From the NCBI RefSeq assembly GCF_009192765.1, contig NZ_VOHQ01000002.1:496001-560000 (forward strand): a stretch of 64,000 bases of DNA. The letters run 5' to 3'. The translations under genes and the position numbers were made by a program. Positions 37,735 through 64,000 of the stretch are shown here, piece after piece. The notes under the pieces are model-generated. The model worked only from the letters and a program-made list of their open reading frames with translations, was not told the origin of the DNA and ran no database searches. Positions within the stretch are counted from its first letter, which is position 1. Every line of letters starts with the position of its first letter. Source of the stretch: Agriterribacter humi. Lineage in GTDB: Bacteria; Bacteroidota; Bacteroidia; Chitinophagales; Chitinophagaceae.

Positions 37735-39243
37735 TCAGGGTTGAACCTGCTTATACAATCCAAATTCTGCGAGGGTGGGATTTAGTCTTGATGACAGGAT
37801 ACGAAGCCGTACTTTGCTTGCCGTTACGGGGTCAAAACGGATCAATCGTTTATACCCTACCGTTGTGCCTTCCGTAATTTTCTTCCATTTTTTTCCATCC
37901 TGGTATTCCAGAACAAACTGCTCAATACGCTGCCCGATAGTAATGTTTTCCTGTAACAGCAGCACGTCAAATGTTTTACTGCCATTCAGCTTCAGCTCAA
38001 TAACAGCAGTAGTATCTTTTTTCCTGGTGGTCCAGTACGTATCGTAGTCGTGATCAAGAATGGACTTCCCCCTGTTCCCAATGTTCAGTCTTGCTCCACT
38101 GGCAACATTCACGGTAAAAGTTTCAGTAATTATTTTCTTCCATGCCATCAGGTTAGCCACATCATTTTCATGGATCACCCCCCTTTTATCGGGTGGAATA
38201 TTCAGCAGTAGAACACCATTCCTTCCTACCGAGCTGTAGTAAATGTCAAGCAGCTTTTCAGGTGTCTTTACCCTGTCATCTTCTTTGGCATGATAAAACC
38301 ATCCCGGACGTATAGATACATCCGTTTCTGCAGGATACCACACCAATCCTTTTGCATTCACAATTTTTTCCCGGCTGCCCAGATCATTCCCGGTCATATC
38401 GCCCTGTGGCTTAAAAGCAAGGTCATGCTGGGAACCCGAAGCAATTTCAGACGGATCTAAATTATTAGCCGGCACTACGCTCCATTCTGTTTCCCGCCCA
38501 TAACCACTTTCTGTTCCTACCCATCTTACATCCGGTCCCATAATGGCGATGGTAGCAGCGGGCTGCAGCTCACGTATAAGCTTATACCATCTTTCAAAAT
38601 CATATACCTGTTTTTTCCCGTTGGGCCCCTCACCATTGGCGCCGTCAAACCACACTTCGTCCACACGTCCATAGCGGGTGAGCAATTCCGTGAGTTGCTC
38701 AACAAAAAAATCATTGTATGCATCTGTTCCGTATACGGAAGCATTCCTGTCCCACGGCGATAAATAAATACCAAACCCGATGCCATATGCGCGGCAGGCA
38801 TCGGCTACTTCTTTTACTACATCTCCTTTGCCCTCTTTCCAGGGGCTGCCTGCCACAGAATGGCTGGTGGTTTTTGTAGGCCATAAACAAAAACCGTCAT
38901 GGTGTTTAGCTGTAATGATCACTTGTTTAATGCCGGCGTTCTTTGCAGTGATCACCCATTGCTTTGCATCCAATGCAGTGGGATTGAAAATTTGAGGGTC
39001 TTCCGTTCCATCCCCCCATTCCTTATTGGTAAAAGTATTGATGCCAAAATGAAAAAAGGCTGTCAGCTCCAGTTGTTGCCAGCGCAACTGTCGCGGAGAG
39101 GGCGTAACATTGGCCGCTTTGGCAATGATGTCTTTTTCCGTATCGCTTGGATGTATCAAAACATAGTTTTCTTTTGCCTCCTGGCCGAAAGCGATATTGC
39201 ACAGTAATGTAAATGCTAAGGTTATCAGGTTGTTCTTATTCAT
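37735..39243 (-). CDS. GH29 alpha-L-fucosidase with C-terminal discoidin-like domain
   Basis: A 502-residue secreted enzyme that releases alpha-L-fucose. A signal peptide (MNKNNLITLAFTLLCNIAFG) is followed by the GH29 catalytic domain: FHFGINTFTNKEWGDG, ITAKHHDGFCLWPT, and the nucleophile D200 in VDEVWFDGANGEG. The block IMGPDVRWVGTESGYG resembles the GH29-B (alpha-1,3/4) group more than GH29-A, as a guess. Residues about 385-500 look like an F5/8 (discoidin) carbohydrate-binding domain (ILDHDYDTYWTT to the end). It is last in a minus-strand operon after two sulfatases, 55 bases away. Fucose is therefore an expected component of the target glycan. Confidence 0.92.
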   Translation of the reverse strand: MNKNNLITLAFTLLCNIAFGQEAKENYVLIHPSDTEKDIIAKAANVTPSPRQLRWQQLELTAFFHFGINTFTNKEWGDGTEDPQIFNPTALDAKQWVITAKNAGIKQVIITAKHHDGFCLWPTKTTSHSVAGSPWKEGKGDVVKEVADACRAYGIGFGIYLSPWDRNASVYGTDAYNDFFVEQLTELLTRYGRVDEVWFDGANGEGPNGKKQVYDFERWYKLIRELQPAATIAIMGPDVRWVGTESGYGRETEWSVVPANNLDPSEIASGSQHDLAFKPQGDMTGNDLGSREKIVNAKGLVWYPAETDVSIRPGWFYHAKEDDRVKTPEKLLDIYYSSVGRNGVLLLNIPPDKRGVIHENDVANLMAWKKIITETFTVNVASGARLNIGNRGKSILDHDYDTYWTTRKKDTTAVIELKLNGSKTFDVLLLQENITIGQRIEQFVLEYQDGKKWKKITEGTTVGYKRLIRFDPVTASKVRLRILSSRLNPTLAEFGLYKQVQP

Positions 39244-39298
39244 TTTGCTGTGTATAAAAGGTTATTTTTTGTGATTACATATGGTATTATCGTGCAGG

Positions 39299-40837
39299 CT
39301 ATTCACTGTTCAGTATTTGTTTCGCATATTCATCTTCATACTGTGCTATCAATGCATTGAGCTGTGATTTTAACTGTCTTGTAATTTTTTCGTATCCTTT
39401 TTTGCCATACAGATTATGCATGTCGTGCGGATCTTTTTGCAGATCATAGAGTTCCCAGCTATCCACTCTTTTGTAAAAACGGATCAGCTTATACTTTTTT
39501 GTTTGCACACCAAAATGAGGTGATACGGAATGTTCGCCATTTTCGTAATAGTGATAATACATTGCTTCACGGCCTTTTACTTTTTTACCGGTCAGCAAAG
39601 GCAACATGGATTTACCCTGCATGTATTCCGGTATAGTCACACCGGCGGCATCTAAGCAGGTGGGCGCTATATCAAGGTTCATTACATATTCGTTCAGCTT
39701 TGTGCCCGGCTTAATTACGCCCGGGTAACGCATCATCATGGGTGTTCTGAATGATTCTTCATACATGAAACGCTTATCAAACCAACCATGTTCACCCATA
39801 TAAAATCCCTGGTCCGATAAATACATTACTATGGTATTATTGGCTAATTGATGCTGGTCCAAATAATCTAATGTGCGTCCTATATTCCTGTCTAATGAAG
39901 CTGCTGTGCTCAGGTAGTCTTTCATATAGCGTTGATATTTCCATTCTGTTAGTGCTTTGCCCGACAGGTTACGGGCTTTGAAATCTGCATAAATGGGTTG
40001 ATAGTAGGCATCAAATTTGGCACGCTGCGCAGCATTCATCCGCGTAATCGCGGGTTCTTTGTTATCGGCAGGCAACATTTTCAGATCATAACCCAATATC
40101 ATGGTTTTGGCAATGGTCATATCCTGCACTTTTGCCGCCGCCCTGTTATCGTAATCATCATAAAAATTTTCAGGTAGGGGAAAAGTTACATCATCAAACA
40201 TACCCATGTCTGTTGTGTCGGGTAGCCATGTACGGTGGGTTGATTTGTGCCCGATCACCAGGCAAAAAGGTTTGCTGGTATCCCGCTGGTCTAACCAGTT
40301 TTCGGTTACATCCTCAACAATATTGGTGGCATATCCTTCTATTCTTTTCCTGCTGCCGTCCATCATCAGCATATCGGGGTTGTAATAACTGCCCTGCCCG
40401 GGGAATATTTGCCAGAAGTCGAAGCCCTGTGGTTGTGTTCCCAAATGATACTTGCCTATCCACGCGGTTTGATAACCATTGGCCTGCAATTGCTTTACAA
40501 AGAGGGCCTGCCCGGCATTGAAATTGGAGGTTTCATTATCTTTAAATCCGTTTTTGTGGCTATACTTACCCGTGAGCAAAACAGCCCTGCTTGGCCCGCA
40601 AATAGAGTTGGTAACATAGGCCTTGCTGAACAGCACACCTTCTTTTGCAATACGGTCTATATTGGGGGTTTGCATGAACTTACTGCCATACGCACTGATG
40701 GTTTGGTAAGCGTGATCATCTGAAAGAATGATGACGATATTGGGACGTTTTGCTTTTGGCTGGGCCGTGAGTGCAGTACAGGCGGCGAAGAGCATCAGTG
40801 CTGTTAGTGTAATTCTTTTCATCCGTATATTTTTCAT
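39299..40837 (-). CDS. Secreted S1-family sulfatase (Cys type) 1
   Basis: A 512-residue arylsulfatase-type enzyme that removes sulfate from a sugar. After a signal peptide ending near TALTAQ comes the metal site RPNIVIILSDDHAY, and the formylglycine site C80-G-P-S-R in NSICGPSRAVLLTGK. Later blocks are IGKYHLGTQPQGFD, YLSDQGFYMGEHGW and YKLIRFYKR near the C-terminus. It resembles N-acetylglucosamine-6-sulfatase and choline-sulfatase-like groups, but substrate position cannot be fixed. Its start overlaps the preceding sulfatase stop by four bases (ATGA). Maturation needs an anSME enzyme not present in the window. Confidence 0.92.
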   Translation of the reverse strand: MKNIRMKRITLTALMLFAACTALTAQPKAKRPNIVIILSDDHAYQTISAYGSKFMQTPNIDRIAKEGVLFSKAYVTNSICGPSRAVLLTGKYSHKNGFKDNETSNFNAGQALFVKQLQANGYQTAWIGKYHLGTQPQGFDFWQIFPGQGSYYNPDMLMMDGSRKRIEGYATNIVEDVTENWLDQRDTSKPFCLVIGHKSTHRTWLPDTTDMGMFDDVTFPLPENFYDDYDNRAAAKVQDMTIAKTMILGYDLKMLPADNKEPAITRMNAAQRAKFDAYYQPIYADFKARNLSGKALTEWKYQRYMKDYLSTAASLDRNIGRTLDYLDQHQLANNTIVMYLSDQGFYMGEHGWFDKRFMYEESFRTPMMMRYPGVIKPGTKLNEYVMNLDIAPTCLDAAGVTIPEYMQGKSMLPLLTGKKVKGREAMYYHYYENGEHSVSPHFGVQTKKYKLIRFYKRVDSWELYDLQKDPHDMHNLYGKKGYEKITRQLKSQLNALIAQYEDEYAKQILNSE

Positions 40838-42234
40838 TTTTTAATGAAAGGAAAATTTATATTCTCCGCATGCTCATTTTGCATGATGTTTTTTATGCGC
40901 TCTATTATGGCAGGATTTTCAGCAGCCGCATTTTTTGTTTCACCCGGATCAGCATCAAGGTTATACAATTGGATGGGGCTATCGGGGTCTTTCATAATGT
41001 TTAAGCGTACTCCTTTCCATTTGCCCGCACGAACAGCCTGGCGGCCACCATCTTCATGAAACTCCCAGTATAAAAATTCGTGTTCCTTTTGTTTGCCTTT
41101 CGACGAAATTTCGGGGAGTAGTGAAATGCCATCTGTATGTGGCGGTGCAGGCGCACCGGCTATTGCGGCAAAGGTTGGCATAAAATCCCAAAAGGCCCCG
41201 GCGAAACCGGATACCTTACTTTTCCTGATAACAGCAGGCCAATAAGCAATCATGGGAGTGCGTATGCCGCCTTCATACAGGTCTCTTTTTATCCCCCTGA
41301 AACCGCCGCTGCTGTTAAAGAATGCGGGATCGTTACCGCCTTCGCGGTGAGGGCCGTTATCGCTTGTGAAAATAATAAGGGTGTTTTTTTCAATCCCCAG
41401 TGTTTTTAATTTTTCCACTACCTGTCCTACATAATTATCCAGCTTAGTTACCATTGCCGCATAGGCTGCATGAGGGTAAGCCTGCGGCTGATAGCCGTTA
41501 CCATCCCATGACGCGTTTACTTTTTTTGGCGCTTCATTAAATTTTCTTTTATAATACGCAAATACGCTGTCGTCTTTTGGCAATTGCAAAGCCGCATGGG
41601 GCAAAGTATAAGAAAGATATAGAAAAAAAGGTACTGATTTGTATTCATCAATAAATGCAAGGGCTTCCTTTTGGATGAGATCGGGTGCATAATGCTGCTG
41701 GTTAACGGAAGTGTTGGCGTAGTCTATCCTTCTATCATTGTTCCAAAGGTGATCGGGAAAATAGTTGTGCGACTGGCGCTGGCAGTTGTAGCCAAAAAAG
41801 CGGTCGAAGCCCTGTTGATTGGGAGCGCCTGCTGATCCCGGGTATCCTAATCCCCATTTGCCAAAATCACCTGTGGCATATCCTGCTTTCTTAAGCATTT
41901 CAGCCATGGTATAGGCAGTATCGGGTAATGGCAATTGTCCTTCAGGTTGAATTTCATAATTGCCACGAACAGGAGTATGTCCGGTATGCTGCCCCGTGAG
42001 TAAGGCGGAACGCGAAGGGGCACAAACCGACGTGCCGGCATAAAACTGTGTGAAGCGTATTCCCCCGGCAGCCAGTTGATCTATATGGGGTGTTTCAATA
42101 TGTTTTTGACCGTAGCAGCCCAGGTCGCCATAGCCCATATCATCCGCCAGTATGAAAACGATATTGGGTTTGGTTTGCGCAAAAGCGGTAAAAGATAATA
42201 AGCAGCAAAAAAAAAGGAACGGAATTTTAATCAT
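40834..42234 (-). CDS. Secreted S1-family sulfatase (Cys type) 2
   Basis: A 466-residue sulfatase started at the ATG at 42234, because MIKIPFLFFCCLLSFTAFAQ is a good signal peptide; a longer frame to 42273 puts residues in front of it. Metal site PNIVFILADDMGYGDLG; formylglycine site C71-A-P-S-R in TSVCAPSRSALLTGQ. Further blocks are GKWGLGYPGS, FFGYNCQRQSHNYFP and IFTSDNGPHREGG. The GYNCQRQSHNYFP region is characteristic of arylsulfatase A-like enzymes from Planctomycetes and Bacteroidota. It is the first gene of the sulfatase-sulfatase-GH29 operon; the upstream spacer carries repeat copy 3. Confidence 0.92.
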   Translation of the reverse strand: MIKIPFLFFCCLLSFTAFAQTKPNIVFILADDMGYGDLGCYGQKHIETPHIDQLAAGGIRFTQFYAGTSVCAPSRSALLTGQHTGHTPVRGNYEIQPEGQLPLPDTAYTMAEMLKKAGYATGDFGKWGLGYPGSAGAPNQQGFDRFFGYNCQRQSHNYFPDHLWNNDRRIDYANTSVNQQHYAPDLIQKEALAFIDEYKSVPFFLYLSYTLPHAALQLPKDDSVFAYYKRKFNEAPKKVNASWDGNGYQPQAYPHAAYAAMVTKLDNYVGQVVEKLKTLGIEKNTLIIFTSDNGPHREGGNDPAFFNSSGGFRGIKRDLYEGGIRTPMIAYWPAVIRKSKVSGFAGAFWDFMPTFAAIAGAPAPPHTDGISLLPEISSKGKQKEHEFLYWEFHEDGGRQAVRAGKWKGVRLNIMKDPDSPIQLYNLDADPGETKNAAAENPAIIERIKNIMQNEHAENINFPFIKK

Positions 42235-42377
42235 TTCTCCTTCATTTTGATCACAGATAAGTGCAAGATACAAAACATGCGATCAGAAATAATTGGATTG
42301 ATATGCTGAAGTAGTCCGTGCTATGGTTATATTTAAGAGTTGAGTTTGCGTTTAGGTTTAAATTTTATATTTAAATA

Positions 42378-42455
42378 TTATTTGGTTCTTATTTTTTGTT
42401 TTCTTGGTGCTTTTTTTGCATTACTCCGGATTTCGAATTCCCGGCTTCGGATTTA
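42378..42455 (+). repeat. Degenerate interspersed repeat, copy 3
   Basis: Contains TTTGGTTCTTATTTTTTG, TTTCTTGGTGCTTTTTTTGC, CCGGATTTCGAA and GGCTTCGGATTT. The last 12-mer is identical in copy 2 (near 9888). It represents the second half of the element in copies 1 and 2. It lies between the beta-propeller gene and the sulfatase operon and may contain part of the sulfatase promoter region. Confidence 0.6.
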
Positions 42456-42507
42456 ATTTTAATCTGTCATTGGCAGGTATCAGCGGATATTAATGAATGA
42501 GATGAGC

Positions 42508-43413
42508 TTACAGCAACCACCTCGCTTTATATATTTTTAATCCCTGCTGTTTGAAAATGCTGTTGCCCTCAATATCTAATACTTCGTCTGTCCACCACTT
42601 TTCTTTGGGCCGAATAATGATCGTGGGATATCCTTGAGGTCCGGATGATACGCTTTTTATATTTTCTCCGAACCGTGTGTTTACCTTCTCGGCTTTTTTG
42701 CTTTGCACATCAACTTTAAATATGGCCGAATGGGCGCTGAGCCACAATGCATCTTTATTATACGCCCTGTACAGATCATGAGCGCCGTTGTCGGGCATGG
42801 CTACAGAGTCAATCAGTATAAATGCGGGATTATTTTTGTTTGCATTATAATTATATGTTTTTAACTGGTCCCGGGACACGGTATACAATCGTTTTTTCTT
42901 TTTGTCCCATACCAGGTTATGTCCGTCGTGCAGGTAAAAATCTTTACGTACTGTTTGTTCGGGATCATCCTTACCGGTAGTAACAAAAATGCTCATGAAA
43001 TTGCCCGTACTGGAAGCGCTCACAATATTTCCATCGGGCAGTTGTTCAACAGAATGTGTGTTGCCGCCGGCATAAGCATAGAGCATTGTTTTCTTGTCGG
43101 CTACGCGAATCAGCGCCACACCTCCGCCGGAAGCACAGGCGAGTATATATTTCCCATTTTCAAGCGGCTTTGCATCACTCATCGCTTCAAACCATTTGGC
43201 ATGCTCCGGTTTAATATCGGGACGAACGGAAGGCCTCCATTCCCATACTATTCTCCGAGCTGCTATATCGGCAATGGCTACACGACTTTTTGATTGTTCG
43301 GAAAGTATGATATACTTTTTTCCTTTTTCAGGATGCCAGTTTGTTTGGGCATTTGAAGTATGCCAAAATGTTGTGATTAAAAGGCAGGTGAGCAGGCTGA
43401 TTGAGTATTTCAT
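42508..43413 (-). CDS. Secreted beta-propeller-like protein (possibly DUF6528)
   Basis: A 301-residue protein from the ATG at 43413 (MKYSISLLTCLLITTFWHTSNAQ is the signal peptide; an in-frame ATG at 43455 would add 14 residues). The mature part has repeating short-strand units: YIILSEQSKSRVAIAD, GGVALIRVADKKTMLYAY, HSVEQLPDGNIVSASS, HNLVWDKKKKRLYTVS, GAHDLYRAYNKDALWLSA. This is a five- to seven-bladed propeller pattern, and it resembles proteins annotated DUF6528 in Bacteroidota. No catalytic residues can be named. It lies upstream of the sulfatase-fucosidase operon on the same strand, and may be a glycan-binding or lyase-like component. Confidence 0.6.
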   Translation of the reverse strand: MKYSISLLTCLLITTFWHTSNAQTNWHPEKGKKYIILSEQSKSRVAIADIAARRIVWEWRPSVRPDIKPEHAKWFEAMSDAKPLENGKYILACASGGGVALIRVADKKTMLYAYAGGNTHSVEQLPDGNIVSASSTGNFMSIFVTTGKDDPEQTVRKDFYLHDGHNLVWDKKKKRLYTVSRDQLKTYNYNANKNNPAFILIDSVAMPDNGAHDLYRAYNKDALWLSAHSAIFKVDVQSKKAEKVNTRFGENIKSVSSGPQGYPTIIIRPKEKWWTDEVLDIEGNSIFKQQGLKIYKARWLL

Positions 43414-43533
43414 ATTTGCTGCTATGGATATACAAATGCAAAATATTTTGTTCATGCATTTGAAAGTTTTTCAATTTTTGTTCCTGGTTCTATCCACTTA
43501 AATAACCCTATGTTGGAGGGAAGCACGATCCGT

Positions 43534-44310
43534 TTACTCGTCAGCCAATTCGATCCACACAGGGGCGTGATCGCTTGTTTTTTCCCAACCCCTTACATGG
43601 CGGTCAACGTTGGCGCCGGTGAGGCGGCTGCTGAGGTTTGGACTAAGCAGGAAATGATCAATGCGCAAACCTGCATCACGGCCGTATGCATTACGGAAAT
43701 AATCCCAAAACGTATAGATCTTCTCCTCCGGGTAAAGTTTTCGTATGGCATCAGTCCATCCTTGTGCTGCAAGGGTTTTAAAAGCGGCACGAACTTCGGG
43801 GCGGAACAGTGCGTCATCTACCCAGCGTTCCGGCTTATACACGTCAATCTCTGCTGGCATTACATTATAATCTCCTGTCAGTACCGTTGGCTTTCCGGAT
43901 GCAAGGAGTTCGGCAGCATGAAGCGTTAAGCGTTCAAACCAACGCAACTTATAATCGAATTTTGGCCCGGGAGCGGGATTGCCATTAGGCAGGTAAAGAC
44001 AACCAACAACAATGCCGTTGATGACTGCTTCAATATAGCGGCTATGCAAATCTTCGGGGTCACCCGGCAATACACGGCATACTTCGCTGATCCCGTGGTT
44101 ACGCGCAAGGATGGCAACACCATTCCAGCTTTTTTGTCCATGCCAGATCGCAGCATAACCTGCATCTTGTATGGCTTGCTCCGGAAATTTTTCTTCCGGC
44201 GCTTTCAGCTCCTGCAGGCAAACAACATCAGGCTTTGTTTCACCCAGCCAGCGAAGCAGGACCGGCAGGCGCCCGTTTACGCCATTAACATTATAGGTGG
44301 CAATTTTCAT
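43534..44310 (-). CDS. xth: Exodeoxyribonuclease III (AP endonuclease)
   Basis: A 258-residue endonuclease/exonuclease/phosphatase-fold enzyme for base-excision repair at abasic sites. Blocks: MKIATYNVNGVNGRLP, CLQELKAPEEKFPEQ (metal E), WNGVAILARNHG, YLPNGNP, GDYNVMPAEIDVY, and the C-terminal RIDHFLLSP and SDHAPVWIEL with catalytic D-H. Length is as in the ExoA/XthA family. It is a housekeeping gene inserted between the two arms of the polysaccharide utilisation locus, transcribed away from susC. Confidence 0.95.
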   Translation of the reverse strand: MKIATYNVNGVNGRLPVLLRWLGETKPDVVCLQELKAPEEKFPEQAIQDAGYAAIWHGQKSWNGVAILARNHGISEVCRVLPGDPEDLHSRYIEAVINGIVVGCLYLPNGNPAPGPKFDYKLRWFERLTLHAAELLASGKPTVLTGDYNVMPAEIDVYKPERWVDDALFRPEVRAAFKTLAAQGWTDAIRKLYPEEKIYTFWDYFRNAYGRDAGLRIDHFLLSPNLSSRLTGANVDRHVRGWEKTSDHAPVWIELADE

Positions 44311-44536
44311 TGTAAATTATTCGTGTGGGATAAAGATAATTGAAAAATAGTCTGATTGTATGCGCATTACTTAAAATGGATGCACTTCAAAATGACAGTA
44401 GATACATACGCCGGGGCGGGCAACGTGTTACGGCCCAGTTGAAAATACATACCAGCAATATGTGCATGTAAAAAGTTTTTTTTTAAAAAAGTTGTTATTG
44501 CCGGATAGTCGCTATAATAAAATATATCCTTACTCA

Positions 44537-44550
44537 CGAAAACGTTGTAG
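44537..44550. promoter_or_regulatory. Candidate LacI-type operator 1 upstream of susC
   Basis: CGAAAACGTTGTAG has the AACGTT core with central CG favoured by LacI-family hinge helices. Its outer bases are less symmetric. The central CG (44543-44544) is 31 bp from that of the second site, close to three helical turns. Confidence 0.4.
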
Positions 44551-44566
44551 TAATTATAGTTATTTA

Positions 44567-44580
44567 GATTAAACGTTTTA
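44567..44580. promoter_or_regulatory. Candidate LacI-type operator 2 upstream of susC
   Basis: GATTAAACGTTTTA contains the 12-mer TTAAACGTTTTA, symmetric at 10 of 12 positions about a central CG (44574-44575). It lies where the -33 element of the assumed susC promoter should be. A LacI-family gene lies in the same locus (53432-54490). Similar AAACGTTT octamers also occur by chance inside rpmB and fdtA. Confidence 0.5.
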
Positions 44581-54490: not shown

Positions 54491-54555
54491 AACGCGGGAT
54501 AGAATGTTTTTTTGTATAGCGGCTTTGATCGGAATTATAACAAATGTTTTTTAAA

Positions 54556-56073
54556 ATGAAACGAAGAAAATTTATTTATCAAACATCGGCAGGTTTGGGT
54601 GGTTTATTGCCTGTTATTAAACAGTTTAAAGAGATTGAAATCAGTGAAGGCCCATTCTTTTCAACGGGAATTAAAATAGGCGAGGTTACCGCTTCTTCAG
54701 CAATAATATGGCTTCGTTTAACCGGCAGCAGGCAGCCTGTCAGCAGGCAATCTCCCGTTCCGCACGTTACTTATTTTGATGAGACAACAGGCGACTGGCA
54801 TCCCCAGAAATATTTTAAAGAGAAATATAAACAAGACAGGCCGGACAGGGAAGTAAAAGTAGTGTTTCCGGATGGTTACAATATTACAAACATTGGAGGA
54901 GCGGCGCCCGGATCAAATGGTGAAGTAAGATTACTGTATAAAAAAATGGGAGCTTCCAAATGGAATAACACGAATTGGGTTGCAGTAGAGGAACAGGCGG
55001 ATTATTCAATACACATCAGTTTGATTGACCTCGAACCAGGTGCTGAATATGAAATTGAAGCAGAAGCAAAAGCCATTGGCAATAAAACCAAATCCGCATC
55101 CATAAAAGGTAGATTTAAAACATCCTGGAATGCTGAACAGCCGTATGATGTACAGTTTATGGTTACTACCTGCCACGAATACAATCACCAGGATGATCCT
55201 TCCGGCAGGGGTTTTAAGATTTATAAACACATGCAGGCGATGCATCCCGATTTTTTGGTGCATACCGGCGATGTACTTTATTATGATCATGTGGCCAAAA
55301 GCCTGCCATTGGCCAAATGGTCCTGGCAACGGATGTTCGGGTTGGCTAATGCCGTACATTTTTATAGAAACACGCCCTGCTACTTTATGAAAGACGACCA
55401 TGATACCTGGATGAATGATTGCTACCCGGAGTCAAAAAATAAATTCATGGGCCAGTTTACCTTTCAGCAGGGCGTACAGCTTTTCAAACAACAGGTTCCT
55501 ATGAGCGACAAGCCTTACCGCACATTCCGGTGGGGCAAAGCGCTGCAGGTGTGGCTCATGGAGGTTCGTGAGTACAGATCAGCAAATGCTATGCAGGATG
55601 GTCCCCAAAAATCAATATGGGGCAAAGCGCAGATGGAATGGTTTAAGCGAACCTTCAGTGAATCGGATGCTGACTGTAAAATTTTGATCAGTCCAACTCC
55701 CATTGTTGGGCCCGACCGGCCGCAAAAAAAAGATAACCATGCCAATATCGGGTTTGCATACGAAGGAAAGATGATCAGGGAATTTGTGACAACTCACCCC
55801 AACACTTTCATTATTTGTGGCGACAGGCACTGGCAATACGTTTCGCAGGATAAGACCACCGGGCTAATGGAGTTTAGTTGTGGCCCTGCCAGTAATGAGC
55901 ACGCCAGCGGATGGAATAAAGAAGATGTACTGCCTGAACATCATTATTTAAATATTGTTGGCGGATTTCTAGGCGTGGAGGTTAAGCCGAATGAAGCCCG
56001 GCCGGAAATTGTTTTTACGCACTACGGAGTGGACGGAGAAAAATTGTATTCAAAGAGAATTAATATTCAGTAA
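54556..56073 (+). CDS. PhoD-like metallophosphatase/phosphodiesterase, Tat-exported
   Basis: A 505-residue PhoD-type enzyme started at the ATG at 54556, which gives MKRRKFIYQTSAGLGGLLP, a twin-arginine signal (an ATG at 54544 adds four residues). After an N-terminal fibronectin-like domain (TGIKIGEVTASSAIIWLRL) comes the metal-binding phosphatase core: HTGDVLYYDHVA, FMKDDHDTWMND, ISPTPIVGPDR and FIICGDRHWQYVS. PhoD enzymes hydrolyse phosphate mono- or diesters. In a glycan-utilisation locus this may act on a phospho-sugar or phosphodiester substituent, but PhoD-like proteins also hydrolyse other esters. Not the usual PUL component. Confidence 0.85.
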   Translation: MKRRKFIYQTSAGLGGLLPVIKQFKEIEISEGPFFSTGIKIGEVTASSAIIWLRLTGSRQPVSRQSPVPHVTYFDETTGDWHPQKYFKEKYKQDRPDREVKVVFPDGYNITNIGGAAPGSNGEVRLLYKKMGASKWNNTNWVAVEEQADYSIHISLIDLEPGAEYEIEAEAKAIGNKTKSASIKGRFKTSWNAEQPYDVQFMVTTCHEYNHQDDPSGRGFKIYKHMQAMHPDFLVHTGDVLYYDHVAKSLPLAKWSWQRMFGLANAVHFYRNTPCYFMKDDHDTWMNDCYPESKNKFMGQFTFQQGVQLFKQQVPMSDKPYRTFRWGKALQVWLMEVREYRSANAMQDGPQKSIWGKAQMEWFKRTFSESDADCKILISPTPIVGPDRPQKKDNHANIGFAYEGKMIREFVTTHPNTFIICGDRHWQYVSQDKTTGLMEFSCGPASNEHASGWNKEDVLPEHHYLNIVGGFLGVEVKPNEARPEIVFTHYGVDGEKLYSKRINIQ

Positions 56074-56224: not shown

Positions 56225-58726
56225 ATGCATAGACGAAAACTTTTTTGTAGTTGCCTGTTTTTCCTGGTTACCATGCTATGCAGTGCACAGGAAAAGGCTG
56301 TATACACCAGGTTTCTTGAAATAACGGTACCGGCTAATGGCACAGAGACGGTGTTCAATCCTCCCATCCTGCGGTGGCCGTATCAAAAAGGAAAACAGGT
56401 AAAATACGATATTCAGCTTTCCCGGGATAGTGCTTTCCCGGCAACCTCAACTATTGCTGCATCAGGATTAAACGGTGCTATTTTCAACACTCATAAAGCA
56501 TTGGAGCCGGGTAAATGGTTTTGGAAATACCGCTTGTCAGGTAAAACATGGTCTCCTGTGCAACATTTTACAGTTTCCGCAAATGCCCTGCCAATGGTTT
56601 CTCCGGAAGCCATCGGTTTTCTGGCAAAAATTCCGGAAGCACATCCCAGGATATTGCTTGATGATCCCCATGAAAACATAACTGCATTATCTAAAAAAGC
56701 AGATGCGCTGGTAATAATTGCAGATGCAGAAAAAGCAGTTACAGAGAAAATACTTACTGAAGCGGATGCAAGCCTGGGTGTAAAAGGGACCAATGAAAAG
56801 CAGGATAAAAAAATTAAACAAGACGGGATAGTGGCGTTAGGTCACAGGATGCATAAAATGGTGTTGTCGTTATGCCAGGCCTACCTGCTTACAGGGAACA
56901 GGCGATATGCAGCAAAGTCAATTGATATTGCGATGGAGGTTGCCCGTTGGGATCCAAAGGGAATTTCCGGTTTCAGTGATTTTACAGACGGGATATGCAT
57001 GTACGATATGGCGCTTGTTTTTGATACCTTTTATGATCAGCTCAGTGCAGAACAAAAAAGCATCCTGCTGGCAGCCATCACAAAAAGGGCCGGAGGGTTT
57101 TATAAAAGCTGGGTGAACAATATTGAATCAAAAGTATTGAGCGGTCATGTTTGGCAATTGTTATTAAATGAATTTTTTAAAACATCTGTTGCGCTTTACA
57201 AACACGAACCGGAGGCTGCTGACTGGCTTTCCTATGCATATGAATTATTTCTGGCAAGATCGCCCGTATTAGGTGGATTAGACGGAGGCTGGGCCGAAGG
57301 CGCTTCCTATTTCACTATGAATATGGAAACCCTGATAGAAATTCCATCCAAAATAAAAGCGTATACCGGTTTTGATTTTATTAATGCACACCCCTGGTAT
57401 ACAAACGGGGCCGATAACTTAATTTACCAGTTCCCTGCGGGCTCCTCTGCCGATGGCTATGGCGATAATACTGAAGGATTGTTTGAACCACCTGCATCCT
57501 ATGCAGCGTTCGCAACTGAAATGGCCAGGCTTACGCAAAATCCGAAATTTGAGTGGTATGCCCGTCAATTACAACAATACCATAAAACAGATCTCGCCAG
57601 GGAACCCATATTAAGATGGTTCAGGCTTATTAATGAAGATAAGTTGCCCGTTGCGGTTGAAAAAGCCACACCCGATTTTCCCATGATGCATGTAGCAAAA
57701 GAAACGGGCGTTGCATCTTTACATACAGATCCTGCCAATACTCAAAAAGATGTTATGATTGCCATGCGCTCAAGCCCCTTTGGAGCTTACGGGCATATAC
57801 TCGCCGATCAAAATACTTTTAATATTTTATATGGAGGCAAAAGATTATTCTATCGCACCGGTTATAAAGTAGCGATGGATGATCCGCACCGGCTGGGATG
57901 GAGCAAACATACCAAAAGTCAAAACGGCGTATTGATCAACGGAGAAGGTCAGCCTTACAGTGCGGAAGCGCATGGTAATTTCAGCCGCTTTTTGCAGGGC
58001 AGGCAATTGGCATATATTAAAGGGGATGCTTCGCATGCGTACCAAAGTGCGGAAACAAAAGAAGATCATGGAGTGCAAAAATTCCTGAGGCATATTGTTT
58101 TGCTGAAACCCGGAATAATTATTATTTATGATGAGCTGGAAGCAGCGTCTGCTGCTTCATGGTCGTGGCTGATCCACAGCATAGAAGATATGAAACTCGA
58201 TCCGGTGCAAAATACATTTACATCTGTTATCGAAAACGCGAAAGGTGTAGGTAAGCTATGGAGCTCCCAGCCATATACGTGGCAACTGACCAATAAGTTT
58301 GATGTTCCTGCTGTTAGCTTCAGGGATTATCCCGGCAGGAAACCGAAAAATTTTGCAGATACCCAATGGCATTTGAAAGCCATAAACAAAACCCAAGCCC
58401 GGAAGATCCGTTTTTTATCCGTTATACAGGTTTCCGCAGATGGCAAAATACTTCCGTTTAAAGAAACAGGTAAACTAACGGGAACGATCAAACTAACCAT
58501 TGCGGGCTGGGAAATTGAGGCCGCTTTATCGTACGATTTGCCCCCGCAGTTACAGGTGCGATCGGTAGAAGATAATGTTGCTTTTGCAGCTTATGGCAAT
58601 GCTATTCAATTTCAGGGGCAACAGTATAATGGAAAGCAACCGGGGAACTCAAAGCTGGTGGAGCTGGTGAATGGAAAAATAAGATATGCTGAAATGGGTG
58701 ATGAACCCGTATCTCCAATCAGGTAA
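56225..58726 (+). CDS. Heparinase II/III-family polysaccharide lyase with DUF4962 N-domain
   Basis: An 833-residue secreted protein. The signal peptide (MHRRKLFCSCLFFLVTMLCSAQ) is followed by a DUF4962-type N-region (residues about 30-460) with PPILRWPYQKG, AHPRILLDDPHENI, and the (alpha/alpha) toroid blocks WQLLLNEFFKTSV and LDGGWAEGASYFTMNMETL. The C-terminal heparinase II/III beta-domain starts near residue 480 (FGAYGHILADQNTFNILYGGKRLFY, FLRHIVLLKPGIIIIYDEL). The architecture matches heparinase II-like lyases (PL21 and relatives), which cleave uronate-containing sulfated glycans. With the sulfatases, it points to a glycosaminoglycan-like or uronate-sulfate target. Confidence 0.87.
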   Translation: MHRRKLFCSCLFFLVTMLCSAQEKAVYTRFLEITVPANGTETVFNPPILRWPYQKGKQVKYDIQLSRDSAFPATSTIAASGLNGAIFNTHKALEPGKWFWKYRLSGKTWSPVQHFTVSANALPMVSPEAIGFLAKIPEAHPRILLDDPHENITALSKKADALVIIADAEKAVTEKILTEADASLGVKGTNEKQDKKIKQDGIVALGHRMHKMVLSLCQAYLLTGNRRYAAKSIDIAMEVARWDPKGISGFSDFTDGICMYDMALVFDTFYDQLSAEQKSILLAAITKRAGGFYKSWVNNIESKVLSGHVWQLLLNEFFKTSVALYKHEPEAADWLSYAYELFLARSPVLGGLDGGWAEGASYFTMNMETLIEIPSKIKAYTGFDFINAHPWYTNGADNLIYQFPAGSSADGYGDNTEGLFEPPASYAAFATEMARLTQNPKFEWYARQLQQYHKTDLAREPILRWFRLINEDKLPVAVEKATPDFPMMHVAKETGVASLHTDPANTQKDVMIAMRSSPFGAYGHILADQNTFNILYGGKRLFYRTGYKVAMDDPHRLGWSKHTKSQNGVLINGEGQPYSAEAHGNFSRFLQGRQLAYIKGDASHAYQSAETKEDHGVQKFLRHIVLLKPGIIIIYDELEAASAASWSWLIHSIEDMKLDPVQNTFTSVIENAKGVGKLWSSQPYTWQLTNKFDVPAVSFRDYPGRKPKNFADTQWHLKAINKTQARKIRFLSVIQVSADGKILPFKETGKLTGTIKLTIAGWEIEAALSYDLPPQLQVRSVEDNVAFAAYGNAIQFQGQQYNGKQPGNSKLVELVNGKIRYAEMGDEPVSPIR

Positions 58727-58760
58727 AGGGTTTTGCAGCGTGTTAAATAATTTATCGGAC

Positions 58761-60356
58761 ATGAAAAAAATATGGACGCTTTTTTATTTTTTTGCAACAA
58801 TGCTTATTGTATGCCGGCAGCATACCCTTGTGGCGCAGGGTGGGAAAAAGCCTGTAAAGCCGTTCAATATTTTGTTTGCCATCTCCGATGATCAGTCTTA
58901 CCCGCATGCGTCAGCTTACGGACAAAAAACCTTTCGTACACCCGTGTTTGATAGCATTGCGGCAAGCGGGATATTATTCAATAACGCATTTGTTGCCGCG
59001 CCTCAATGCAGCCCTTCCCGTGCGGCTATTCTTACCGGGAGGCATATATGGCAATTGGAAGAAGCCGGAACACATGCCAGTTTTTTTCCTAAGAAATTCC
59101 CGGTGTTTACTGATGTGCTTGAAAATGAAGGTTATTTTATCGGGTATACCGGCAAGGCATGGGCGCCGGGAAATTTTGCAAATGCAGGCTGGACCCGCAA
59201 CCCCGTTGGACCGGCCTATAATGCAAAACTGCTCAGCAGTTTGCCCACGAAAGGAATCAGCAAAACGGATTATGCAGCCAACTTTAAAATATTTCTCTCT
59301 GAAAAACCATCGGATAAACCTTTCTTCTTTTGGTATGGCGCAAATGAACCGCACAGAAATTATGAAGAAGGTTCAGGCGCAGCGGCAGGACTTACGGATG
59401 AGGGGCTCATCGTGCCCCCATTCCTGCCCAATAATCAATTGGTGAAAAATGATATGCTCGATTATGCGCTTGAAATTGAATGGTTCGATAAGCAATTGGG
59501 CAAAATGTTACAACTGCTGGCAGAAGCAGGAGAACTGGAGCATACTATTATTGTTGTTACTGCCGATAATGGAATGCCTTTTCCTTATGCCAAAGCCAAC
59601 CTGCAGGAATATGGTATTCATGTGCCATTGGCTATATGCGGCCCAATAGTAAAAGGAGAACAACGTACAGCAGATGACCTGGTGAGCCTCATTGACCTGG
59701 CGCCAACATTCTTAGACATCGCGGGTGCGAAGCAATTTGGGGGTATTACCGGAAAAACATTGATGCCCATATTAACGCTTTCAGATACCGGGAAAATTAG
59801 TCCCGCCGATCAATACATATTAGCCGGAAGGGAACGGCATTCACATGCGCGGCCAGATAATGTTGGTTATCCTGCAAGGGCTATCCGCACCCGCAAATAT
59901 CTCTATATCGAAAATTTTAAACCAAACAGGTGGCCAATTGGAGATCCGGCGCCACTGCAACAAGTTTCAATTTCCGATAATGCAAATATGAAGCCCATTC
60001 TTTTGGGATATGAAGACATTGATGACTCGCCCACCAAAGCATTTATGGTAAACAGCCAATCTAAATTACCCGAACTTTTTAGTCTTGGATTTGAAAAAAG
60101 AGGCCACAGCGAATTGTATGATATTGAAACCGATCCTTATTGTTTGCACGATCTTTCTTCATCGGCAGATATGCAGGCTATACGCACCCAATTAAAAAAT
60201 GAACTCGAAAAAAAATTGATAGAGCAGGGTGATCCGCGGATGACAGGTAATGGCGATATTTTTGACAGCTACCCGCGGTTTGGGCTGATGCGACCGTTTG
60301 AAGGATTTAAAGAAAGAGGAAAATACAATCCTGCATTTATGAATAGAAACAATTGA
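58761..60356 (+). CDS. Secreted sulfatase 3 (sulfamidase-like group)
   Basis: A 531-residue sulfatase from the ATG at 58761, placing a signal peptide (MKKIWTLFYFFATMLIVCRQ onward) at the start; longer in-frame ATGs at 58686 lie in the lyase gene's end. Metal site FNILFAISDDQSYPH; formylglycine site C83-S-P-S-R in APQCSPSRAAILTGR. Unlike the typical DDMGYGD form, DDQSYPHASAYG and GKAWAPGNF are shared with heparan N-sulfatase (sulfamidase)-like enzymes. DNGMPFPYAKANLQEYG is a further block of that group. It lies 34 bases after the lyase gene. N-sulfate removal is plausible but unproven. Confidence 0.88.
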   Translation: MKKIWTLFYFFATMLIVCRQHTLVAQGGKKPVKPFNILFAISDDQSYPHASAYGQKTFRTPVFDSIAASGILFNNAFVAAPQCSPSRAAILTGRHIWQLEEAGTHASFFPKKFPVFTDVLENEGYFIGYTGKAWAPGNFANAGWTRNPVGPAYNAKLLSSLPTKGISKTDYAANFKIFLSEKPSDKPFFFWYGANEPHRNYEEGSGAAAGLTDEGLIVPPFLPNNQLVKNDMLDYALEIEWFDKQLGKMLQLLAEAGELEHTIIVVTADNGMPFPYAKANLQEYGIHVPLAICGPIVKGEQRTADDLVSLIDLAPTFLDIAGAKQFGGITGKTLMPILTLSDTGKISPADQYILAGRERHSHARPDNVGYPARAIRTRKYLYIENFKPNRWPIGDPAPLQQVSISDNANMKPILLGYEDIDDSPTKAFMVNSQSKLPELFSLGFEKRGHSELYDIETDPYCLHDLSSSADMQAIRTQLKNELEKKLIEQGDPRMTGNGDIFDSYPRFGLMRPFEGFKERGKYNPAFMNRNN

Positions 60357-60391
60357 TACCACATGCATGTATTGTATACAACAGAAAAAAA

Positions 60392-61795
60392 ATGAAAAGA
60401 AAAAAAATGACAGAATGGATAACTAAGAGCCTGTTTTGCCGGGTTTTTATCGTTGTCGCTTTTATTCAATCATCGTTTGCTCAAAGCACTCAGCATCCCA
60501 ATATTATTTTAATACTGACAGATGACCTGGGCTGGAGTTGTTTCTCTGCAAAAATGGATGATCGCATTTCCGCTTCAAAAAGTGATTATTATGAAACGCC
60601 CAATATTGACAGGCTGATGGCGCAAAGTATGCGTTTTACAAGGGGCTATGCGCCAGACCCCATTTGCTCGCCAAGCAGAAGAAGCATACAGTTTGGACAA
60701 ACCTCCATTCGCCAGGGCGATGAATCGTTTCCCGGACTTGTTCGTGATATTGCTCACCAATCTATTCCCGCCGTATTAAAAGCATTTGACAGCCAATACA
60801 GAGCCGCTCATTTTGGCAAGTGGGATCTGCGTGCGAAAATAACACCGGCCCAACTGGGTTACGATGAAAGCGATGGCGACACGGGTAATAAAACCGGCGA
60901 TCTTGTTAAAGACAAAAATGAAAAATGGACCAAACATTATATTACCGGCAACCCCAAACAAATGGATAGTATAACGGCCCGCTCTGTTCGGTTTATGCAG
61001 GAGCAGGTAAAAACAAAACATCCGTTTTACCTCCAGGTATCGCATTATGCCACGCATGTAAATTTTGAATCAAAACAATCCAGCTATGAAAAATTCAAAT
61101 CAAAAAAACCTGGTTTAAAGCATAACAATCCCGCATGGGCTGCGATGATCTATGACCTGGATGCAAGTGTCGGTGAACTGTTGAACATGGTAGAACATTT
61201 GGGAATTGCCAACAATACCTACATCTTCCTGATGGCGGATAATGGCGCCGTTGAATTTATTCCACCGGTACGTAACCGCCTTGACCCGCCTTCTTCTTTC
61301 CAGTCGCCTATGACAAACTTTCCACTCAGGGGAGGCAAATGGACTTTGTATGAAGGCGGAATCCGTGTGCCTTTCATTGCAAAAGGACCTGGTATAAAAG
61401 CAGGTGTACAATCGGATATTCCGGTAGCAGGATGGGACCTGCTGCCCACATTTAATGAATTGGCCGGTAATACAAAAAAACCGGGGGGTACTATTGATGG
61501 GGCAAGCCTGGTGTCTGTATTAAAGCATGGAGGAAAAGGTACAATAACCCGCCTTTCCAATGATTTTTTCTTTCATCGTGACAACAACAGCTATCCGCAT
61601 TCGGCAATCATTGCCGGCGATTACAAGCTGATAAAATTCTGGAAAACAAATAAAACAGAACTGTATAATATCAGCAAAGACCCCGGTGAAATCAACGATC
61701 TTTCAAGCCGGGAGGTTTCCAGGGTAAAAGAAATGGAACGCAGGCTATTGACTTATATAAACGAAGTAAACCCTGAACTGGCAAAGCGCTATTAA
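60392..61795 (+). CDS. Secreted sulfatase 4 (Cys type)
   Basis: A 467-residue sulfatase. The ATG at 60392 gives a basic N-terminus MKRKKMTEWITK and signal peptide ending FAQ; an ATG at 60407 and an upstream one at 60353 are alternatives. Metal site PNIILILTDDLGWS; formylglycine site C92-S-P-S-R in DPICSPSRRSIQFGQ. Unusual is the insertion FSAKMDDRISASKSDYYETP between the metal strand and the N-x-D-R-L block. Further blocks are FGKWDLRAK, FLMADNGAVEF and YEGGIRVPFIAKGPG. The GKWD instead of GKWH differs from most S1 sulfatases. It is 35 bases after sulfatase 3. Confidence 0.9.
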   Translation: MKRKKMTEWITKSLFCRVFIVVAFIQSSFAQSTQHPNIILILTDDLGWSCFSAKMDDRISASKSDYYETPNIDRLMAQSMRFTRGYAPDPICSPSRRSIQFGQTSIRQGDESFPGLVRDIAHQSIPAVLKAFDSQYRAAHFGKWDLRAKITPAQLGYDESDGDTGNKTGDLVKDKNEKWTKHYITGNPKQMDSITARSVRFMQEQVKTKHPFYLQVSHYATHVNFESKQSSYEKFKSKKPGLKHNNPAWAAMIYDLDASVGELLNMVEHLGIANNTYIFLMADNGAVEFIPPVRNRLDPPSSFQSPMTNFPLRGGKWTLYEGGIRVPFIAKGPGIKAGVQSDIPVAGWDLLPTFNELAGNTKKPGGTIDGASLVSVLKHGGKGTITRLSNDFFFHRDNNSYPHSAIIAGDYKLIKFWKTNKTELYNISKDPGEINDLSSREVSRVKEMERRLLTYINEVNPELAKRY

Positions 61796-61806
61796 TTGTA
61801 TTCTAT

Positions 61807-63339
61807 ATGAAAAAGTATTTCATCTTTCTGCTGAGCATCTGTTGTGCGGCTTTTTCAGTTGCTCAGGAAAAAGAATTAACACCGGTTATCATTATCATGG
61901 CCGATCAGCTTCGCTCAGATGTATTAGGCGAATTAACGCCCAATATAAATGCTTTAAAAAAAGACGGCGTTAATTTTACCCGCGCTTATTGTGCCGTACC
62001 GCTTTGTGCGCCATCGCGTGCTTCCTTCTTTACCGGGTTGTATGCTAACCGCACCGGATCCCTGATCAATCCATGGGAGGAAGAAGATAAAAAGTTTGGC
62101 AACACAAAAGCCGGTATTCCCAATTTGTACAGCATTATGGAAAAGGATTGGGATAGTTACCATGTAGGAAAGCAGCATTTTTTTACCGAAGAAAAAATAG
62201 ATAAGAATCCGAAAAGCAAAACCAAATGGATTACACAACAAACATATAGCGACTGGGTAAAGGCTAATAATAAAACCAAACCCGGCGGCAAACAATTTAA
62301 AGACAATGCACCTGAAATTGTTTCGGGTGCGCATACCCGGTTGCGATCTTATTCTACACCTGTTTTTGATATTTACAAAGATGGGATTGATTATTTTCTT
62401 GATCACTATATCGCTTCAGAAAGTATAGCGGCCATTAAAAACAGGGATAAGAAAAAACCCTTGCTGTTAAATGCCATGTTCCTGGCCCCTCACCCTCCAT
62501 TTAGCATTCCTGAGCCATATTATTCCATGGTAACTGCCAAAGACTTTACATTACCGGAAAATGTTGGCCAATGGTATTTTGGTCAGTCGCCTCTGCAGAT
62601 GTATAACCTTACAGGATTCATAGGCTCAAGATACAGCAGGCAACAATGGGCTGAGATTTGGACAAAGTACCTGGGACTTGTAAAATTATTAGATGATGAG
62701 GTGGGCCGTGTGATCAATGCGTTGAAAGAAGAAGGCCTGTATGATAAAGCCATTATCGTGTTCACTGCCGATCATGGTGAAATGCTGGGCAGTCATTCGC
62801 TCTGGCAAAAAATGTGTATGTATGAAGAATCGGCCAAAGTTCCGCTGGTTGTAAAGCTTCCCAAAAGTTTTAAAACCACCGCTAAGGAATACGGTGCCCT
62901 GGTAAGTCTTGTAGATGTACTGCCCACTTTACTGGAATACAATAACCTGCAGGCGCCGCAAAAATTAGATGGACATTCGCTCATGCCGATTCTTGAAGGA
63001 AAAGCATTTGACAGGAATTCAATTTTCATCCAGTACGATGGTAACGGATCATTGGGCGGTCCACAGCGTTGTGTAATAAGGAACAATTATAAGCTGATCG
63101 TGGATATGTTCAAAGATGAAGCTTTTGTAGAATTATACGATACCGTAAAAGATCCGCAGGAAAAAGTGAACCTGATGTTTGATGAAAATTTTACAGCAAC
63201 AGCGGATGATTTAATTGCCGAATTATCGGGTTATATGCAAAGAACAGGCGACAGGGTGCGCTTACCTAAAGGGTTGCGTGAAAACTTTGTAATGCAGTAT
63301 AAAAAAGGTATTGAGAAAAAAGATAAATCACAGCCATGA
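61807..63339 (+). CDS. Secreted sulfatase 5 (Cys type)
   Basis: A 510-residue sulfatase with signal peptide MKKYFIFLLSICCAAFSVAQ. Metal site VIIIMADQLRSDVLG (DQ instead of DD, as in choline-sulfatase- and iduronate/heparan 2-O-sulfatase-like groups); formylglycine site C67-A-P-S-R in VPLCAPSRASFFTGL. Other blocks are VGKQHFF, FLAPHPPF, FTADHGEMLGSH and YEESAKVPLVVKLP. The ADQLRSD and ADHGEMLGSH forms resemble sulfatases on uronate 2-O-sulfate, a guess by motif only. The next sulfatase overlaps its stop by four bases. Confidence 0.91.
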   Translation: MKKYFIFLLSICCAAFSVAQEKELTPVIIIMADQLRSDVLGELTPNINALKKDGVNFTRAYCAVPLCAPSRASFFTGLYANRTGSLINPWEEEDKKFGNTKAGIPNLYSIMEKDWDSYHVGKQHFFTEEKIDKNPKSKTKWITQQTYSDWVKANNKTKPGGKQFKDNAPEIVSGAHTRLRSYSTPVFDIYKDGIDYFLDHYIASESIAAIKNRDKKKPLLLNAMFLAPHPPFSIPEPYYSMVTAKDFTLPENVGQWYFGQSPLQMYNLTGFIGSRYSRQQWAEIWTKYLGLVKLLDDEVGRVINALKEEGLYDKAIIVFTADHGEMLGSHSLWQKMCMYEESAKVPLVVKLPKSFKTTAKEYGALVSLVDVLPTLLEYNNLQAPQKLDGHSLMPILEGKAFDRNSIFIQYDGNGSLGGPQRCVIRNNYKLIVDMFKDEAFVELYDTVKDPQEKVNLMFDENFTATADDLIAELSGYMQRTGDRVRLPKGLRENFVMQYKKGIEKKDKSQP

Positions 63340-64000
63340 AAAAAGATAAGGTCTTTGGAAGATTTTGTTTCTTCTTTGTATGCATTTGCTTCCTGGCGTT
63401 AATGCAAACAGGCAGATTGTATGCACAGCAAAAAAGTGTTTTACCCAATATCGTTTATATCCTTGCAGATGATATGGGTTATGGTGATGTTTCTATTTAT
63501 AATCCGAAATCAAAAATAGCCACGCCTCATATTGACGGGTTGGCAAAACAGGGCATGCGTTTTACCGATGCCCATACTACCTCTTCTGTATGTACCCCTT
63601 CCCGTTATTCGCTGCTTACAGGAAGGTATCCCTGGCGCAGCCGGCTTCCGGTGGGTGTTTTGCGGGGATATAGCAGAACCCTGATTGAAGCAGATCAACC
63701 TACCGTGGCTACACTCCTGAAAACGAAATCTTATCGTACGGCTGTAGTGGGTAAATGGCACCTGGGACTGGACTGGGTACCCAAAGAGGCATTCAGGGAT
63801 TCGATCAATCCCGCATTCAACAAAAACAATTTATATGGCATAAAAAGTGAAATGAATCCTGATCATATAGATTTTAGCAAAGCTCCGGCGCAGGGCCCTG
63901 CAACCCAGGGATTTGATTATTCCTATATACTTCCTGCATCACTGGATATGCCGCCTTACTGCTACCTGGAAAACGACAGGTTAACAGCATCTCTTACAGG
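63336..64000 (+). CDS. Secreted sulfatase 6 (Cys type), 3' end beyond window
   Basis: The ATG at 63336 overlaps the previous stop (ATGA). About 221 residues are visible: a signal peptide MKKDKVFGRFCFFFVCICFL ending near LYAQ, metal site LPNIVYILADDMGYGDVS, and formylglycine site C86-T-P-S-R in SSVCTPSRYSLLTGR, then WRSRLPVGVL and VVGKWHLGLDWV. This is the arylsulfatase A-like group; GRYPWRSRLP followed by GKWHLGLDW is frequent in Bacteroidota and Planctomycetes sulfatases. The rest lies outside, so the locus continues to the right. Confidence 0.92.
   Translation, partial: MKKDKVFGRFCFFFVCICFLALMQTGRLYAQQKSVLPNIVYILADDMGYGDVSIYNPKSKIATPHIDGLAKQGMRFTDAHTTSSVCTPSRYSLLTGRYPWRSRLPVGVLRGYSRTLIEADQPTVATLLKTKSYRTAVVGKWHLGLDWVPKEAFRDSINPAFNKNNLYGIKSEMNPDHIDFSKAPAQGPATQGFDYSYILPASLDMPPYCYLENDRLTASLT

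Follow-up and report, generated by a model that had tools for sequence, protein, structure and literature searches.

The 64,000 bp window of the Agriterribacter humi genome analyzed here (positions 496,001 to 560,000 of contig NZ_VOHQ01000002.1; G000:C12:496001-560000 in our numbering, in which genomes carry G numbers and other sequence stretches L numbers) contains on its plus strand what is probably a LacI-repressed polysaccharide-utilization locus for a sulfated, uronate-containing heteropolysaccharide. The genome comprises 5.69 Mb in 34 contigs, and the locus, whose GC content is 0.40–0.46, starts at position 44673, crosses the right end of the window and continues along the contig. Its genes encode, in order, a SusC-type transporter, a SusD-type protein, a GH92 enzyme, an unclassified protein called P0009, the repressor LacI1, a PhoD-like protein, a PL15-type lyase (P0012), five Cys-type sulfatases (S_c through S_g), a GH28 enzyme and a GH27 enzyme. 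All of them lie on the plus strand with intergenic gaps of −4 to 151 bases (some of the start codons were chosen by us), and adjacent SusC and SusD genes accompanied by co-directional genes for carbohydrate-active enzymes are what defines a SusC/SusD polysaccharide-utilization locus. A second LacI gene, LacI2, follows the GH27 gene in convergent orientation on the same contig. The other of the two units between positions 37735 and 64000 is a minus-strand block that runs from xth to a GH29 gene and is considered below.

The SusC-type TonB-dependent transporter (44673–47660; PF13715 and PF07715) and the SusD-type glycan-binding protein (47682–49556; PF07980 and PF14322) are followed by the GH92 α-mannosidase (49641–52028; PF07971 at E = 4e-145), P0009 (52048–53430), LacI1 (53432–54490; PF00356 and PF13377), the PhoD-like metallophosphoesterase (54544–56073; PF09423 at 2e-24) and the lyase (56225–58726; a DUF4962 domain and a heparinase II/III C-terminal domain, assigned by Pfam, PDB match and catalytic residues); both P0009 and the PhoD-like protein have Tat-like leaders. 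The sulfatases come next: S_c (58761–60356) is remotely S1_8-like (PDB 9bb9 at 1.7e-27), S_d (60392–61795) is S1_16-like (9fo1 at 2e-55; the starts of these two were chosen by us), S_e (61807–63339) is nearest to an exo-2S-iota-carrageenan sulfatase (6pt4 at 4e-41), and S_f (63336–64000, where the window edge cuts the gene) is S1_15-like and in full length matches 6s20 at 2e-80 and the S1_15B enzyme 9bau at 8e-72. The rest of S_f, then S_g, GH28 (PF00295 at 8.5e-22) and a GH27 gene with an NPCBM domain lie beyond the window. The C-x-P-S/T-R motif, the downstream G and the sulfatase domain of the S1 Cys type are present in all seven sulfatases (S_a through S_g, the first two belonging to the minus-strand block), and the class labels given for five of the seven (S_a, S_c, S_d, S_e and S_f) are those of the nearest solved structures and not SulfAtlas subfamilies. 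A Pfam scan of 16 proteins between 37735 and 64000, which left aside overlapping antisense and small open reading frames, bore out the GH29, GH92, DUF4962/heparinase II/III-type, PhoD-like and LacI proteins and the single SusC/SusD pair named in the initial annotation; as it also claimed, no hybrid two-component regulator or ECF sigma/anti-sigma pair is found among these 16 proteins. The six Cys-type sulfatases it counted are six PF00884 genes with the motif, of which the last is cut by the edge with a seventh directly beyond, and a LacI protein as the sole regulator does not hold, given LacI2 just past the locus; both statements are edge effects, since the window edge cuts the locus. Of the two candidate propeller proteins in the initial annotation, one belongs to DUF6528 and the other is P0009, which has no family match. 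The earlier coordinates were correct in general, except that LacI1 probably starts at the ATG at 53432 and not at 53258.

Relatives in Saprospiraceae, Haliscomenobacter and other Bacteroidetes metagenome-assembled genome (MAG) records, like the SusC/SusD genes, point to Bacteroidota. At E ≤ 1e-100 the PL15 lyase is rare, with matches in three of 98 relatives (A. humi counted), two of 12 same-genus genomes and three of 395 sampled phylum members (A. humi and the heparinase-like G321 included), and S_c has a match in 26 of 394 family members at the same threshold. The neighborhoods of 12 of these 26 S_c genes were read (A. humi, G798, G241, G646, G754, G018, G055, G626, G009, G750, G781 and G874). 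Ten PL15 loci were counted: A. humi, G009, G018, G241, G798, G754, G626, G750, G781 and L004, the last a 10 kb contig from another collection on which gene absences mean little; G646, G055 and G874, where the stretch read contains no PL15, and L005–L009 were left out. S_c and S_d are present in all 10, S_e in nine, S_f and GH28 in eight each, S_g in six, GH88 and GH27 in five each, GH92 and a PhoD-like gene in four each, LacI1 in three and P0009 in one. S_c adjoins the lyase gene in eight of the 10, the exceptions being G009 and G781, where S_d and a DUF1961 gene intervene. Several of these genes are also fused: PL15 to GH88 in G009 (by Pfam) and G781 (by BLAST), S_c to S_d in L004, and S_c to S_e in G009 and G781. 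It is chiefly this joint occurrence, together with the fusions, that speaks for the lyase and the sulfatases acting on one substrate. Further genes accompany the core in some relatives, namely GH2, GH3 and GH88 in G241, and an FGE-type (sulfatase-activating) gene with GH115-like and GH106-like genes in G626.

The predicted LacI control of the locus is well supported. Two palindromic candidate LacI-type operators lie on the plus strand in the SusC promoter, the upstream one CGAAAACGTTGTAG at 44537–44550 and the downstream one TTAAACGTTTTA at 44569–44580, with centers 31 bp apart, and the promoter thereby has the palindromic site with a central CG that a LacI regulon should have at its target. 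The sequence TAAACGTTTT occurs about 80–105 nt ahead of the SusC start in each of the five SusC promoters that the four LacI1 loci contain (A. humi, G241, G798 and twice in G646), the chance expectation for AAACGTTT being 0.004–0.008 per 250 nt, and the exact operator 18-mer occurs once in the 5.7 Mb A. humi genome. LacI1 orthologues stand at the corresponding place in G241, G798 and G646 (64, 66 and 61% identical, respectively). A pattern drawn from the SusC promoters of LacI1 loci was searched, with a reversed control, in 10 further genomes; it matched G241, G798 and G646 solely at SusC, gave no match in G009, G006, G781, G018, G626 or G750, and found one blind match in G754, on a contig not read before, at a site which proved to lie ahead of a SusC/SusD pair (53 and 44% identical). 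The reversed control gave one match, in G018. Across the promoters, the second operator is found 30, 31 or 40 bp farther upstream and is weaker (0 to 4 mismatches in 14), with a perfect copy 31 bp upstream in G754; these spacings come near to whole turns of the helix, as in the cooperative binding of a repressor. The conserved SusC-promoter operator, the genome-wide uniqueness of the exact 18-mer and the blind prediction borne out in G754 thus strengthen the earlier proposal of local LacI control. A lacI gene inside a SusC/SusD locus has a parallel in the LacI-associated xylan locus of the Bacteroidota member Gramella flava (PMC5306329); the present locus differs in having a SusC-promoter operator that several genera share and that has predictive value.

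What the sequence itself shows is which genes are there, the repeated association of PL15 with S_c and S_d (and with S_e, S_f and GH28), the residues for catalysis, the operator and the single occurrence of its exact 18-mer; from these we infer target, repression, inducer, order of steps, promoter position and a single transcript as follows. Without substrate, LacI1 on the operators ahead of SusC would block transcription of the unit from SusC to GH27, and low basal expression would let oligosaccharides enter through SusC/SusD. S_c to S_g would then strip sulfate esters, the PL15 enzyme would cut beside uronic acid by β-elimination, and GH92, GH28 and GH27 would take off other sugars; a released sugar would bind LacI1 and so free the promoter.

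P0012 is a PL15 enzyme and probably a β-eliminating lyase. Its best PDB match is the exolytic heparinase BIexoHep of PL15_2 (PDB 6lja; PMC7904915) at E = 3.5e-97 and 30% identity, and it also matches the oligoalginate lyase 3a0o at 4e-42. Like BIexoHep it has the DUF4962 and heparinase II/III C-terminal domains and the catalytic His/Tyr/His that mark PL15 enzymes. Its His308, Tyr362 and His524 correspond to His337, Tyr390 and His555 of BIexoHep and are invariant in all 10 loci, L005 and G321; in BIexoHep, as reported (PMC7904915), changing these residues to Ala nearly abolishes activity. By the residues compared, P0012 is nevertheless not a PL15_2 heparinase, for Arg332, Asn336, Ser554 and Arg579, which bind the heparin chain in BIexoHep and by which a PL15_2 exolytic heparinase is recognized, are Lys, Gly, Gly and Lys in P0012. 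Positions 332 and 579 are Lys and position 554 is Gly in all 10 loci, and position 336 is Gly in seven (Asn is retained in G018, G626 and G750), whereas G321, 67% identical to BIexoHep, retains all four heparinase substrate residues. In a tree the locus enzymes and L005 split from BIexoHep, G321 and 3a0o with a support of 0.918, and the GH88 fusion found in two of the loci is a further difference from BIexoHep.

The sugars implied by the locus family are uronate (PL15 and GH88, and GH115-like in G626), α-galactose (GH27), α-mannose (GH92), rhamnose (GH106-like, in G626) and sulfate. Acidic microalgal polysaccharides would suit this set better than animal glycosaminoglycans (GAGs), and our tentative guess at the target is a branched, acidic and sulfated microalgal polysaccharide of extracellular or wall origin, such as a sulfated glucuronomannan or a charophyte-type mucilage. 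The sulfated, uronate-containing glycan of the initial annotation is supported, as is, within the limits of the search, its statement that no textbook target fits: searches of open-access PubMed Central showed no paper describing this gene combination and its regulator wiring. Its mannose would correspond to GH92, an accessory found in four of the 10 PL15 loci, and the target may be a phosphorylated variant, the PhoD-like gene being an equally recurrent accessory (four of 10) that adjoins GH28 in G626 and G750 and lies near it in G781. With BIexoHep as the closest structural relative of the lyase, S_c remotely S1_8/SGSH-like and the neighboring S_a resembling a GlcNAc-6-sulfatase, one might propose a heparin or heparan sulfate locus in which the lyase is an exolytic PL15_2 heparinase and the sulfatases strip GAG sulfates. 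This is very improbable and was rejected on the changed substrate residues and the wrong accessory enzymes, as the GH28, GH92 and GH27 genes and the GH106/GH115-like genes of G626 misfit a GAG; moreover, the lyase is just 30% identical to BIexoHep, a second heparinase-type lyase is not found among the scanned proteins of the locus, and S_a belongs to the probably separate minus-strand unit. The two algal candidates are each possible if somewhat doubtful. A diatom-type sulfated glucuronomannan, whose α-mannan backbone GH92 would trim after desulfation while the lyase and GH88 remove glucuronate, is suggested by the sulfatase- and GH92-rich loci of Polaribacter and Formosa, which in a marine survey (PMC6298971) also carry GH2, GH3 and GH88 and are proposed to target glucuronomannan; G241 has the same three families. 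However, GH92 is missing from six of the 10 loci and is single in A. humi, whereas the marine loci have several, PL15 does not appear in the alginate section of that survey, and GH28 and GH27 are left unexplained; in its PL15, GH28, GH27, PhoD-like and LacI1 genes, too, the A. humi locus differs from the marine ones as described there. A charophyte or similar green-algal mucilage built of galactose, glucuronic acid, fucose and sulfate would account for GH27, PL15 and the sulfatases, and the neighboring GH29 unit would add fucose; PMC10762512 describes charophyte-type extracellular polysaccharide as anionic and highly branched, with much fucose, galactose and glucuronic acid and a varying sulfate content. 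The match is one of composition, though, and gives GH28 and GH92 no obvious role.

The minus-strand block bears on whether fucose belongs to the target. It begins with the exonuclease III-type gene xth (43534–44310; PF03372), which stands between the block and the locus, and continues with a DUF6528 gene (42508–43455; PF20138 at 6e-55), the Cys-type sulfatase S_b (40834–42273; PF00884 at 5e-61, motif CAPSR), the Cys-type sulfatase S_a (39299–40837; motif CGPSR), whose nearest relatives are N-acetylglucosamine-6-sulfatases (PDB 7p24 at 7e-171 and 5g2v at 1e-149) and which we take to be S1_11-like, and, as the last gene, a GH29 α-L-fucosidase with an F5/8-type C domain (37735–39243; PF01120 at 3.2e-41). 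The genes adjoin the locus physically, and the initial annotation treated everything from GH29 to the window end as one locus with six sulfatases for one fucose-containing glycan, which now seems quite unlikely. In G006, of the same genus, xth, S_b, S_a and GH29 occur in the same order (93, 85, 90 and 90% identical) without DUF6528, and the 40 kb read around them show no SusC/SusD, lyase or other locus gene; none of the four was seen in the stretches (10 to 60 kb) read of the nine other PL15 loci, and AAACGTTT was not found ahead of S_b. We therefore regard the fucosidase block as probably separate and as a neighbor of the locus by chance, which weakens the case for fucose in the target. S_a-type sulfatases themselves are found in 19 of 58 relatives (A. 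humi included) at E ≤ 1e-120. As for the regulator, it is unlikely that LacI2 or another LacI protein, and not LacI1, binds the SusC operators: LacI2 flanks the locus, its orthologue in G018 (55% identical) lies near SusC in place of LacI1 with AAAACGTTT sites close by, and G754 has the operator with no LacI1 gene seen in the stretches read, but in four loci the operator pattern goes together with LacI1, and the LacI2-bearing G018 lacks it. Since there are loci with LacI1, LacI2 in G018, and FecR-type genes in G009 and G781, the regulatory switch seems to have been exchanged between otherwise similar loci; the ECF sigma and FecR labels in G009 were read from sequence, and the G781 FecR assignment is a BLAST identity of 32% to the G009 protein.

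Besides the flanking LacI2 and the G754 promoter, several observations weigh against a LacI1-controlled uronate pathway of the kind proposed. GH88 is not shown in the loci of A. humi, G018, G626, G750 or the 10 kb L004, and the A. humi genome as a whole has no convincing GH88 (the best match, at 27 bits, is a GH76-type protein and the second reaches 23 bits), which leaves removal of the unsaturated uronate unexplained there. The GH28 proteins retain the Asp residues but in nine of nine rows lack the GHG histidine and the RIK lysine that are usual in GH28 polygalacturonases. In the stretches read, G646, G055 and G874 have S_c but no PL15, and the lyase is not indispensable, since G646 lacks PL15 and S_d to S_f and yet retains SusC/SusD, GH92, LacI1, S_c, GH88, S_g and GH28. 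L005–L009, five Bacteroidetes MAG records, have PL15 proteins that are about 40% identical (L008, which is truncated, 43%) with no S_d in view; S_c (56–57%) follows PL15 in L005, L006, L007 and L009, L007 ending within S_c and L008 within PL15. With two mismatches allowed, the operator 18-mer has seven matches and its reversed control has 20, which leaves the exact site as the sole one to count. G241 has a weak upstream operator (four mismatches in 14) and A. humi an imperfect one (two); the upstream sites were chosen, with no control, as those that matched best within the upstream string. The blind test consists of G754 alone among six promoters, and the negatives for G009 and G781 rest on the pattern search, the region covered by the promoter scan having fallen inside their longer SusC genes.

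P0009 has no match in Pfam (even at E = 10), NCBIfam or, by sequence, the PDB. Apart from A. humi, homologues were found in one of the 395 sampled genomes, G315, in two tandem copies, and among 116 relatives of G315 in G315 only. Their neighbors there are sulfatases, GH28 and genes of the pectic acid lyase, RGL11 and pectinesterase types, so that this pectin/rhamnogalacturonan-type locus shares a P0009-type protein, GH28 and sulfatases with that of A. humi and differs from it in the last three gene types and in having no PL15 match in the 35 kb read. The homologues share HP motifs that may resemble those of PL22 lyases, which are seven-bladed propellers with central metal-binding histidines; by sequence, P0009 as a PL22 oligogalacturonate lyase was ruled out by the lack of any Pfam match. 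The PhoD-like proteins, for their part, conserve the motifs HTGD, DDHDxWMND and GDRH in four of four rows.

The locus is thus real and recurrent, of a known kind, and a good case of LacI control. What had been an enzyme list becomes a testable unit whose recurring core is one lyase with at most four sulfatases, and through the defined operator induction could be followed and the target glycan sought with an inexpensive reporter. The loci that are otherwise alike form a natural series of regulator exchanges, the PL15 clade may provide a lyase of undescribed specificity, and, if the target is algal, one lineage and one pathway would be added to those known for sulfated acidic polysaccharides. 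A wider and frankly speculative picture is that the PL15 enzymes of this locus family are a new specificity clade for a sulfated, non-GAG algal glycan, that the pathway of lyase, S_c, S_d and then GH88 or a substitute is conserved and was passed between genomes with its switch exchanged (LacI1, LacI2 or an ECF/FecR-type pair), and that P0009 founds a new family of metal-dependent lyases or hydrolases that replaces the GH88 step.

Some related loci have further contents. In L005 (7140–15326), a Saprospiraceae record, the PL15–S_c pair lies amid ABC-transporter genes with no SusC/SusD in view. The loci of G018 and G009 (L016 and L013) contain 3-keto-disaccharide hydrolase-type genes, and that of G009 also GFO/IDH/MocA-type and DUF1961 genes, hinting at a second, oxidative cleavage route. 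Two kinds of proteins of about 720–750 amino acids with no Pfam match recur in related loci (L019:10217-12415, L015:7403-9580 and L057:17160-19328) and could represent new enzyme families.

On the contig just past the window, the minus strand carries, one after another, a CysQ-like gene (inositol-phosphatase family) and genes for a sulfotransferase, a chromate-transporter-type permease and an APS kinase (L002:12653-16501), possibly a sulfation module beside a desulfation locus. The sulfotransferase is found in seven of 12 same-genus genomes (A. humi included), five of which have no PL15 match at E ≤ 1e-100; it looks independent, and the sulfotransferase, APS kinase and CysQ-like genes were set aside as locus members. 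At L003:259-8114 lies a further SusC/SusD locus, which includes FecR and a gene for an arylsulfotransferase (ASST). Within the window, in which an Rfam search found zero matches, positions 12289–26175 hold a polysaccharide biosynthesis cluster (O-antigen-ligase-type, polysaccharide-export-type and glycosyltransferase genes) with a GC content of about 0.34–0.39, below that of the locus. Two near-identical copies of a small-protein gene lie within about 18 kb of each other (L002:11439-12014 and L003:9326-9895), the second of which matches the 23S rRNA-intervening-sequence family below the cut-off.

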